DNA from: a virus
Length of the DNA stretch: 21,263 nucleotides
Strand: one strand, 5' to 3'
Virus record (IMG/VR): IMGVR_UViG_3300021091_000489
Location: 1 to 21,263 of that record
How positions within the stretch are numbered: position 1 is the first letter of the stretch; every line of letters starts with the position of its first letter. Positions 5,063 through 20,771 of the stretch are shown piece by piece. A program made the translations under genes and the position numbers. The notes beneath the pieces were generated by a model, which was not told where the DNA came from, searched no databases, and saw nothing but the letters and a program-made list of their open reading frames with translations.

Positions 5063-5381
5063 CAATTTCCTCGGTTGAATTGGTGCTCTCTTCGACTTGA
5101 CGAATCTTTTCAAGGTAAGCTTCTTCTAGTCCATCATCACATTGCCCAAAAGCAATCACTGAATCGTAAGGAACTTTAAATTGATTGTCCTTAGAATAAG
5201 GACACCATTTACTAAATTTAACTTGAACGTCTTCGTCTGAAGGAATAAGTTGCAAAGAGTATGGGTGTATAAACAAAAGTCCAAGACCTCTTTTTTCTTC
5301 TTCGTTGTCGCTATCAAAGAATTCTTTTAAATCACAAATCAGTTGTTCACCACTTTTTAAAATTACAATTGATGGATTCAT
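5040..5381 (-). CDS. Small Sm-like-fold protein A (hypothetical, phage paralog)
   Basis: 113-residue protein, first gene of the gp43 operon. The start codon has a good Shine-Dalgarno (TTGGAG, about 8 bases before the ATG) and lies about 20 bases downstream of the expected transcript start of the promoter at 5406-5434. The N-terminus SIVILKSGEQLICDL is a typical Sm1-like strand-turn-strand, followed by an acidic loop, LLFIHPYSLQL, then KWCPY and VPYDSVIAFG, and a C-terminal acidic tail. It is similar in layout to the neighbour at 4766-5062 and to the gene at 17840-18247. I recall that a structure of an Sm-like protein of putative cyanophage origin exists, which fits, but I could not check it. 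Function unknown; RNA binding is plausible. Confidence 0.8.
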   Translation of the reverse strand: MNPSIVILKSGEQLICDLKEFFDSDNEEEKRGLGLLFIHPYSLQLIPSDEDVQVKFSKWCPYSKDNQFKVPYDSVIAFGQCDDGLEEAYLEKIRQVEESTNSTEEIDDQVAAV

Positions 5382-5405
5382 ACGTTCTCCAATTATTTAC
5401 AATCT

Positions 5406-5434
5406 ATTATAGCATAAAAAATAGGGGGTGTCAA
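5406..5434 (-). promoter_or_regulatory. Sigma70-type promoter of the gp43 operon
   Basis: On the minus strand, TTGACA (5434-5429), a spacer of exactly 17 bases and TATAAT (5411-5406), with TGC just before the -10 (extended -10). Both hexamers are perfect consensus. It should be read by host RNA polymerase with its housekeeping sigma factor and drive Sm-like A, Sm-like B, gp43, uvsX and gp41. The -35 lies in the 3' arm of the hsp20 terminator. Confidence 0.9.
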
Positions 5435-5456
5435 CTGGATTTTGCCAGTCACCCCC
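5412..5456 (-). terminator. Rho-independent terminator after hsp20
   Basis: Minus-strand hairpin: GGGGGTG (5456-5450) pairs with CACCCCC (5430-5424), and ACTGG (5449-5445) with CCAGT (5438-5434). The loop is 6 bases and there is a 3-base bulge (TGA) in the 3' arm. It is followed by TATTTTTTAT, a U-rich tail. It lies 36 bases beyond the hsp20 stop and should end that transcript. Confidence 0.85.
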
Positions 5457-5492
5457 TTAGCGCCGACGATATTTGGGTTGCCCCACATCTAT

Positions 5493-5936
5493 TTATCCTT
5501 CAGTTAGAAGCTCTTGTCTGCCAGCACCGATATTGTATGTAGTTCGTTTTTGGTGCTCGGGGATAACCTTCTCCAATGAGATTGTTAATAAACCGTCTTC
5601 AAAATTAACAGCGGTTACTTTGACATCATCTGCAAGTTGCCAACTGTGGGAGAATGAACGCTTGGAGAGACCTTGGTGAACATACACTCGTTCAGAATCT
5701 CGTTTCTCAACCTTAGAGGTAACTCGGAGAATGTTCTGTTCTGTAGATACCTCAATCTTTTCTGCTTTAAATCCAGCCAAAGCGACTTCAATTTCGTAAT
5801 TGCTTCCATCTTTTTTTATTAGATTGTAGGGTGGGTAACTGGTATTATGTCCAGACATTGCCTCTAAACGATGAAATACATCGTCCAGACCTACTGAAAA
5901 TGGGGAGTAAATATCCCAAGTATATTTATTAGTCAT
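5493..5936 (-). CDS. hsp20: Small heat-shock protein Hsp20 (alpha-crystallin family)
   Basis: 147-residue ATP-independent holdase chaperone. The N-terminus (YSPFSVGLDDVFHRLEAM) is typical of bacterial Hsp20. The alpha-crystallin domain begins at about residue 40 (NYEIEVALAGFKAEKIEV), continues with the GLSKRSFSHSWQL strand and ends with FEDGLLTISLEK, the conserved DGvL-type strand. No clear C-terminal I-x-I tail is seen (the end is ELLTEG), so oligomer assembly may differ. Hsp20 genes are common in T4-like cyanophages and are thought to help folding or stabilise host complexes during infection. It stands as a single-gene unit with its own leader and terminator. The ATG has a strong Shine-Dalgarno (AAGGAGA) that lies inside a predicted hairpin. 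Confidence 0.95.
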   Translation of the reverse strand: MTNKYTWDIYSPFSVGLDDVFHRLEAMSGHNTSYPPYNLIKKDGSNYEIEVALAGFKAEKIEVSTEQNILRVTSKVEKRDSERVYVHQGLSKRSFSHSWQLADDVKVTAVNFEDGLLTISLEKVIPEHQKRTTYNIGAGRQELLTEG

Positions 5937-5941
5937 TGTTT

Positions 5942-5960
5942 TCTCCTTAAATAAGCGAGA
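5942..5960 (-). promoter_or_regulatory. Shine-Dalgarno-sequestering hairpin in hsp20 leader (candidate RNA thermometer)
   Basis: Minus strand 5960-5942: TCTC, one bulged G, CTT, loop ATTT, then AAGGAGA. TCTC+CTT pairs completely with AAGGAGA, giving 7 base pairs, AU-rich at the loop, with one bulge. The ATG follows five bases later. The whole Shine-Dalgarno is therefore hidden in a marginally stable stem, as in known heat-shock RNA thermometers such as that of cyanobacterial hsp17. Pairing is seen; temperature control is inferred. Confidence 0.6.
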
Positions 5961-5966
5961 GTTTAC

Positions 5967-5995
5967 AAGACCCCGAAGGCGTCTTTGTTATTATA
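5967..5995 (-). promoter_or_regulatory. hsp20 -10 box and UUCG-capped leader hairpin
   Basis: A TATAAT hexamer lies at 5995-5990 on the minus strand, with no good TTGACA 16-18 bases upstream, so the promoter is only moderately supported. About seven bases downstream begins a hairpin AAGAC(G)CC-TTCG-GG-GTCTT (5985-5967): 7 pairs with one bulged G and a TTCG tetraloop. No T-run follows, so it is not a standard terminator. A transcript starting near 5983 would begin with this stable hairpin. Confidence 0.5.
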
Positions 5996-6033
5996 TATCA
6001 TTTTTTACAGAAAATACTAGTGCGGAATACCCA

Positions 6034-20754: not shown

Positions 20755-20771
20755 GATAACCCAGTGATAAA

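Follow-up and report, generated by a model that had tools for sequence, protein, structure and literature searches.

How is translation of a phage small heat-shock gene controlled, and could its leader act as an RNA thermometer? The question is raised by the window analysed here, a 21,263-nucleotide piece of the genome of a T4-like, cyanomyovirus-related phage. Pfam recognized regA (as Translat_reg) and gp62 in the window; from ORF translations and general knowledge, we take further genes to be uvsX, gp43, gp44, gp45, gp46, gp47, gp55 and uvsW. The gene of interest encodes a protein that matches Pfam HSP20 (PF00011; 63 bits, E = 3e-17) and is about 65% identical to Hsp20 proteins annotated in Synechococcus phages. 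Marine T4-like cyanophages carry hsp20 as a core gene, and capsid scaffolding has been proposed as the function of its product (PMC3037559). We found that the hsp20 leader carries two hairpins that are conserved, covary and closely resemble those of proteobacterial ROSE elements. The full explanation that we favour, with a probability of about 0.84, is that this leader functions as a short RNA thermometer of the ROSE type with two hairpins.

Two hairpins in the hsp20 leader

The leader occupies positions 5985–5937 of the minus strand, and both hairpins can be read directly from the sequence. The features of the locus are as follows (SD, Shine–Dalgarno sequence; the alignments A1 and A2 are described in the next section).

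5989–6000, minus strand: -10-like box TGATATATAATA (TATAAT at 5995–5990), likely promoter of the leader, recognized from sequence, with a putative promoter function
5967–5985, minus strand: hairpin I, AAGAC(G)CC-UUCG-GGGUCUU, stable and GC-rich, at the likely 5′ end (fold and covariation)
5961–5966, minus strand: single-stranded linker between the hairpins (alignments A1 and A2)
5942–5960, minus strand: hairpin II, candidate thermosensor, UCUC(G)CUU-AUUU-AAGGAGA over the SD (fold, pair counts and covariance model)
5953–5960, minus strand: anti-SD strand with the ROSE motif UCGCU at 5958–5954 (A2 column pattern)
5956, minus strand: bulged G opposite the SD, a ROSE hallmark (G in 41/41 distinct phage leaders)
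5943–5948, minus strand: SD AAGGAG, sequestered in the predicted fold (modelled unpaired probability)
5934–5936, minus strand: start codon AUG, outside the hairpin (sequence and folds)
5493–5936, minus strand: hsp20, small heat-shock protein gene of 147 amino acids, the regulated gene (ORF and Pfam)

An earlier note on this DNA, made from the letters alone, had described a hairpin hiding the whole SD, AAGGAGA, and a second, TTCG-capped hairpin, and had proposed an RNA thermometer. Both hairpins were borne out by sequence and fold. Hairpin II has seven pairs, a four-base loop and a bulged G, and five bases (5941–5937) separate it from the ATG at 5936–5934; the second hairpin lies at 5985–5967. 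The anti-SD reads UCUCGCUU. Hairpin I has a bulged G of its own (G5980), which was absent from the earlier note and is conserved in 40 of 41 distinct leaders. RNAfold recovered the SD hairpin at −4.6 kcal/mol (30-mer) and hairpin I at −7.9 kcal/mol. Dinucleotide shuffles folded as well as the SD hairpin in 5/200 cases for the 30-mer and 3/200 for a 27-mer, and 5/200 shuffles equalled hairpin I. Because the fold of this single sequence is only modestly unusual, the case rests on comparative evidence.

To judge from the TATAAT-like box at 5995–5990, transcription probably starts around 5983, where the base of hairpin I lies. Among distinct box-bearing phage leaders, 23 of 38 have a box of the TATAAT, ATAAATA or TTAAATA type that begins 37–42 nt before the anti-SD, and a second cluster of -10-like boxes lies 73–81 nt before it. 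The leaders of L198 (S-PM2), L012, L020, L025, L207 and L209 have their box about 73–81 nt before the anti-SD, and in this group the region upstream of hairpin I contains additional sequence that includes a separate inverted repeat.

Conservation and covariation of the leader

We compared 76 viral contigs encoding relatives and 23 records from annotated phage genomes; IMG/VR contigs are possibly redundant, and sequence counts do not equal event counts. A SD hairpin of this kind was seen by eye in all leaders examined except that of Vibrio phage PWH3a-P1, and hairpin I likewise in nearly all of them. The linker differs in sequence and length among phages in both A1, a plain MAFFT alignment of 45 distinct phage leaders, and A2, a trimmed alignment. 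When the window structure was imposed on A1, 89.7% of cells were paired, compared with 79.0% in shuffles. Double-sided changes were present at 10 of 14 pairs (5.2 in shuffles), a count that 0/500 shuffles reached, and the covariation score was 0.332, compared with 0.142 for shuffled alignments and at most 0.09 with slid partners. The trimmed alignment agreed with A1.

This signal is divided unevenly between the hairpins, with covariation at 7/7 pairs of hairpin I and 3/7 pairs of hairpin II. The low value for hairpin II arises because its SD side is fixed, so that fewer changes are possible. On a tree of the Hsp20 proteins, pair-type changes were needed 1 to 13 times per pair in hairpin I and 0 to 5 times in hairpin II. 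The clearest hairpin II swap within the Kyanoviridae (C–G to G–C) is a single event on this tree, and the hairpin II swaps, as far as the sequences indicate, rest on few events.

Such swaps are the compensatory changes that the earlier note had proposed to look for in other cyanophage leaders. The outer pair of hairpin II is G–C in S-RSM4, S-MbCM7 and ACG-2014e (GUCGCUU/AAGGAC), and the inner pair is A–U in S-CAM1 (CUCGCUA/UAGGAG). S-TIM5, a cyanophage outside the Kyanoviridae, keeps the pairing with CCACGCUU/AAGGUGG, and a bacterial hsp20 leader contains the paired swap AAGUCGCU/AGGACUU. The stem is thus conserved and covarying in close and distant relatives, which supports the thermometer candidate.

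The element is specific to heat-shock leaders

We built a covariance model, R1, from 41 phage leaders, the window's included, and ran it over complete genomes. The window leader, as a training sequence, scored 59 bits (E = 5e-14). All 19 of 19 Kyanoviridae genomes (window fragment excluded) gave one confident match each, and this was always the hsp20 leader. Three Kyanoviridae that had been kept out of R1 were still found (P-RSM1, 7e-7; P-TIM68, 3e-6; ACG-2014f, 3e-6), and Syn33 had one extra weak match (E = 0.23). Seven further records outside R1 were searched, mostly from phages of other hosts, and the hsp20 leader ranked first in six of them. Three of these matches were clear: Phosso (Sinorhizobium; 7e-7), Melnitz (Methylophilales; 2e-5) and the Kyanoviridae cyanophage S-SSM7 (2e-5). 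The other three, HTVC115P (Pelagibacter; 0.02), S-TIM5 (0.06) and C48C1 (0.56), were weak by E-value, so that their position before hsp20 is what counts. In the seventh record, that of PA5oct, R1 found no hsp20 leader. The leader of this Pseudomonas jumbo phage (L219:350–396, TGAGTGCCTTATTGGGCTCA...ATCTTGCGTAAAGGAGAT) looks ROSE-like by eye only, and its TCTTGCGTAAAGGAGA hairpin was likewise recognized only by eye.

Pattern searches led to the same gene. The exact 17-mer of the SD hairpin, CTCGCTTATTNAAGGAG, occurs at at least 120 viral loci; among the 120 matches listed, 115 precede HSP20, 4 end at a contig edge and 1 (L098) precedes DnaK. A looser two-hairpin pattern was found in 114 places, 106 of them before HSP20 and 8 no more than 150 bases from the end of a stretch. 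We also rejected a generic translation-initiation motif, since R1 finds a single confident site in each cyanophage genome and the pattern matches only once in the window.

To look for a host source, we searched bacterial genomes for relatives of phage Hsp20, which returned only two phage-like contigs of metagenome-assembled genomes (MAGs) and two distant homologues. L243 and L244 are cyanophage-like hsp20 contigs binned into MAGs labelled Lewinella and Euryarchaeota TMED129, and are probably phage contamination of the bins.

Relationship to ROSE elements and other thermometers

Four Rfam families matched the window below threshold, and RF02523 (ROSE_3), which covers the leader end to end at 21.2 bits, was the only thermometer family among them. 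RF02523 also matched the leaders of L012, L071, L048 and P-RSM1 below threshold, and its best phage score was that of Melnitz (34.1 bits, E = 0.0019). No phage copy reached the RF02523 gathering threshold of 43 bits (range 21–34 bits where found), and for this reason the leader is not filed as a curated member of the family. The family search, with E up to 10, matched all 14 controls and so does not discriminate. The reciprocal test revealed the same consensus structure and conserved core as in ROSE_3.

R1 recognized bacterial leaders at 13–30 bits, seven of which (16.6–29.8) lie directly before hsp20/ibpA. It matched 6 of 10 bacterial ROSE_3 loci of curated level (L249–L254) at 16.6–24.5 bits and missed the other four; it also gave 29.8 bits on one bacterial hsp20 leader outside these ten. 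A blind R1 run over 398 Pseudomonadota genomes produced ten matches at E ≤ 0.1. Of the four best, three are directly before bacterial hsp20/ibpA (L268, L269 and L271), and L269 coincides with a ROSE_3 element of 65 bits. In 198 control genomes of Bacteroidota, R1 gave, besides a match on a binned phage contig, six weak matches, none of them near hsp20. These background matches reached E-values of 0.001 to 0.02, so what counts as bacterial evidence is a match's location before hsp20 rather than its E-value.

Structurally, the phage leader has the properties of the ROSE-like class. It precedes a heat-shock gene as its 5′ leader and has the SD in the 3′-proximal hairpin, its anti-SD contains U(U/C)GCU with an unpaired G opposite the SD, and hairpin I provides a further stable 5′ hairpin. 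U(U/C)GCU is the motif of ROSE-like elements, and the Pseudomonas ibpA leader has it in the anti-SD of a 61–62-nt, two-hairpin RNA (PMC3669281). There, hairpin II melts between 25 and 42 °C and hairpin I stays closed; the elements repress at 25 °C and allow 4 to 6 fold induction at 42 °C (PMC3669281). Removing the bulged G cuts or abolishes induction, alone in P. aeruginosa and together with U38C in P. putida (PMC3669281).

The phage leader shares with Pseudomonas ibpA ROSE_3 its two hairpins, a length of about 50–62 nt and a position directly before a small heat-shock gene. It also shares the hairpin I core GAU(G)CC..GG-GUC, U(U/C)GCU with a bulged G over AGGAG, an unpaired AUG, a stable hairpin I and a weak hairpin II. 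By contrast, the phage loops are shorter (often UUCG in hairpin I and 4 nt in hairpin II), the upper stem of hairpin II is AU-richer, and the element resides in a phage genome, also before dnaK; its function, unlike theirs, is a prediction. The common hairpin I core (GAU-G-CC .. GG-GUC) and hairpin II core (U(U/C)-G-CU .. AGGAG) suggest common descent with ROSE; alternatively, the two may have converged on a short motif. Classical ROSE elements (RF00435), found in rhizobia and other Alphaproteobacteria, have the same thermosensing-hairpin logic, U(U/C)GCU motif and ibpA-type genes, but differ in their longer leaders, greater number of hairpins and other upstream architecture. One such element (RF00435, 66 bits) lies at L245:1314–1405, before hsp20 of Arenibaculum pallidiluteum.

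The earlier note had likened the leader to cyanobacterial hsp17. This comparison did not hold, as the anatomy differs and the proteobacterial ROSE element is closest. The Synechocystis hsp17 thermometer consists of one hairpin, which has a 1x3 internal loop, uses UCCU as its anti-SD and also traps part of the AUG (PMC4477652). It is likewise the leader of a small heat-shock gene with the SD in a weak stem, but it has neither the ROSE motif nor hairpin I. We rejected an hsp17-type reading, since the phage leader has two hairpins, UCGCU with one bulged G and a free AUG. We also rejected a fourU reading, since the anti-SD is UCUCGCUU and not a run of UUUU opposite the AGGA in the SD. Thermometers carried by phages are known from lambda cIII (cited in PMC8917201) and, of the fourU type, from SP-beta blyA (cited in PMC11342760). 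As these citing papers present them, both are phage-borne and sit at a ribosome-binding site, like the window leader, but have other motifs and genes, being neither ROSE elements nor linked to chaperones.

We found no ROSE element in a phage in the literature searched (open-licence papers), and a text search of reports on ROSE-like and ROSE-G elements gave no link of phages or viruses with ROSE. In the results section of one of these reports, the SP-beta prophage and a Caudoviricetes phage are mentioned in connection with fourU elements. The genome paper of S-CREM1 gives Rfam matches to abiF, wcaG, manA and glnA only; the hsp20 leader of this phage, a training sequence, scores 61 bits with R1.

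Separate elements before dnaK and hsp20

A motif search found the same element before dnaK in 48 viral contigs with 32 distinct leaders. Many of these contigs have a second, often stronger, R1 element about 1.96 kb on, with an HSP20 gene behind it. Phages with tandem dnaK and hsp20, traced from L098, thus have a separate element before each gene. The module at L302:1345–5300 (minus strand) comprises, by Pfam, dnaK, hsp20, clpS, heme oxygenase and a ferredoxin-dependent bilin reductase, and the L302 stretch also contains a fragment of the ribonucleotide reductase small chain. The module, with ROSE-like leaders before dnaK and hsp20, was noted in L302, L291, L098 and other dnaK loci. In L098, dnaK is near ribonucleotide reductase genes, and in PA5oct, too, clpS is next after hsp20.

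The 18 hsp20 leaders of the dnaK-hsp20 phages carry UUGCU, which the ROSE motif also permits, in place of UCGCU. As an independent set, these leaders had double changes at 7 pairs (4/500 shuffles), with a covariation score of 0.394, compared with 0.220 when shuffled, all of it within hairpin I. In most dnaK leaders (loci L278–L324), hairpin I is separated from the SD hairpin by an added GC-rich hairpin of the GGGC..GCCC type, GGGCAAGGTGCCC and variants.

Modelled temperature behaviour

The modelled unpaired probability of the SD in the window leader was 0.05–0.08 at 10–30 °C and 0.19 at 50 °C; the opening is gradual, rising only from 0.07 to 0.10 between 25 and 35 °C. From 15 °C upwards, the hsp20 SD had the lowest modelled accessibility of the 20 window genes examined. 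At 25 °C, the SD of the 45 hsp20 leaders had a median modelled unpaired probability of 0.14; in 20 SD-bearing genes elsewhere on these contigs it was 0.42 (p = 2e-5). A nearest-neighbour model placed the midpoint of the isolated SD hairpin at 76 °C for the window and at a median of 61 °C for the phages. Bacterial ROSE_3 leaders came out at 67–76 °C in the same model, so the absolute midpoints are not to be trusted. By this modelled comparison, most phage SD hairpins are no stronger than those of bacterial ROSE_3. Hairpin II would open with heat and translation would rise as a result, although the models show only a gradual increase in SD exposure. The idea that seawater temperature sets chaperone output, which the earlier note had put forward, is unproven on such modelling.

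A mechanism and its alternatives

In the mechanism that we propose, transcription would probably begin at the base of hairpin I. This stable hairpin would not itself sense temperature but would give the 5′ end protection or aid folding. Hairpin II would pair the SD AAGGAG with the anti-SD UCUCGCUU, with the bulged G weakening the pairing. At low temperature, hairpin II would be closed and binding of the 30S subunit hindered; on warming, it would open and Hsp20 would be translated. Melting would fall within the physiological range, with control exerted on translation in vivo. In many phages, hsp20 would either have recruited the element or been inherited along with it, and a group of dnaK-hsp20 phages has it before dnaK as well. 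Points against a thermometer are the sub-threshold Rfam scores, the gradual modelled opening and high modelled midpoints, the limited covariation of hairpin II, and the possibility that these phages require Hsp20 at every temperature, perhaps for the proposed capsid scaffolding.

Of the alternatives, we regard as unlikely, but as the most serious, that the hairpins form a conserved attenuator of translation that responds mainly to something other than temperature. They could be a RegA site, or a fixed brake from which host or phage factors free Hsp20 output. RegA acts at ribosome-binding sites, and T4 RegA has many targets. The adjoining position of regA upstream of hsp20 in the window, S-PM2, S-CAM1, S-RSM4 and others speaks for an attenuator, as does the gradual modelled melting. 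However, the element is kept in S-CREM1, S-H38, P-RSM1, Phosso and HTVC115P, where regA is not annotated upstream, and it also precedes dnaK. Cyanophage genomes have no second confident R1 site, unlike what a many-target regulator such as T4 RegA would lead one to expect, and elements with proven thermosensing have the same ROSE motif and bulged G.

We consider it very improbable that the SD hairpin is a by-product of a conserved initiation context (a strong SD and an upstream CUCGCUU) or an mRNA-stability element. The anti-SD sequence is conserved, which can reflect sequence constraint, and a 5′ hairpin could stabilize the mRNA; yet the compensatory swaps in S-RSM4, S-MbCM7, ACG-2014e, S-CAM1, S-TIM5 and the bacterial hsp20 leader preserve pairing, the bulged G is invariant though unpaired, and other SD genes on the same contigs are, as modelled, less occluded. 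That the two hairpins are unrelated products of chance in an AT-rich leader can be dismissed almost entirely: equally good folds did arise in 5/200 shuffles of the window SD segment, but conservation and covariation over 45 distinct leaders and the gene specificity in whole genomes refute this explanation.

Implications of a probable ROSE-type thermometer in phages

Since ROSE-like leaders stand before heat-shock genes of many phages, phages probably have temperature-gated chaperones of their own. It is likely, if somewhat less so than the thermometer itself, that phages have a widespread heat-shock regulon, comprising hsp20 and dnaK, under post-transcriptional, ROSE-like control. For hsp20, this regulon would extend to essentially all T4-like cyanophages and to phages of Alpha- and Betaproteobacteria, and probably to Pseudomonas phages; for dnaK plus hsp20, it would take in aquatic dnaK-bearing phages, with a separate element for each gene. 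If this is true, lytic phages gate chaperone production by temperature, independently of host heat-shock transcription, phage chaperone output would be tied to heat stress, and phage dnaK would share the control of hsp20. For hsp20 in cyanophages, the conserved ROSE-like leader points to translation that is probably temperature-gated. The ROSE class, bacterial only in the literature searched, would extend to a large group of lytic phages, and phages from waters of different temperature would offer a natural series of thermometers in which to follow set-point tuning.

Other signals in the window

Two further signals were observed on the minus strand. A perfect sigma-70 promoter (TTGACA, 17-base spacer, TATAAT, with TG before the second hexamer; 12/12) is located at 5434–5406, downstream of hsp20 and just upstream of the gene at 5381–5040, and overlaps a stretch (5402–5473) that matches many cyanophage genomes. 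At 20760–20726, a strong terminator-like hairpin, AAGACCUCCCUUUGGGGGGUCUUUUUUU, lies within a weak Phe_leader match.
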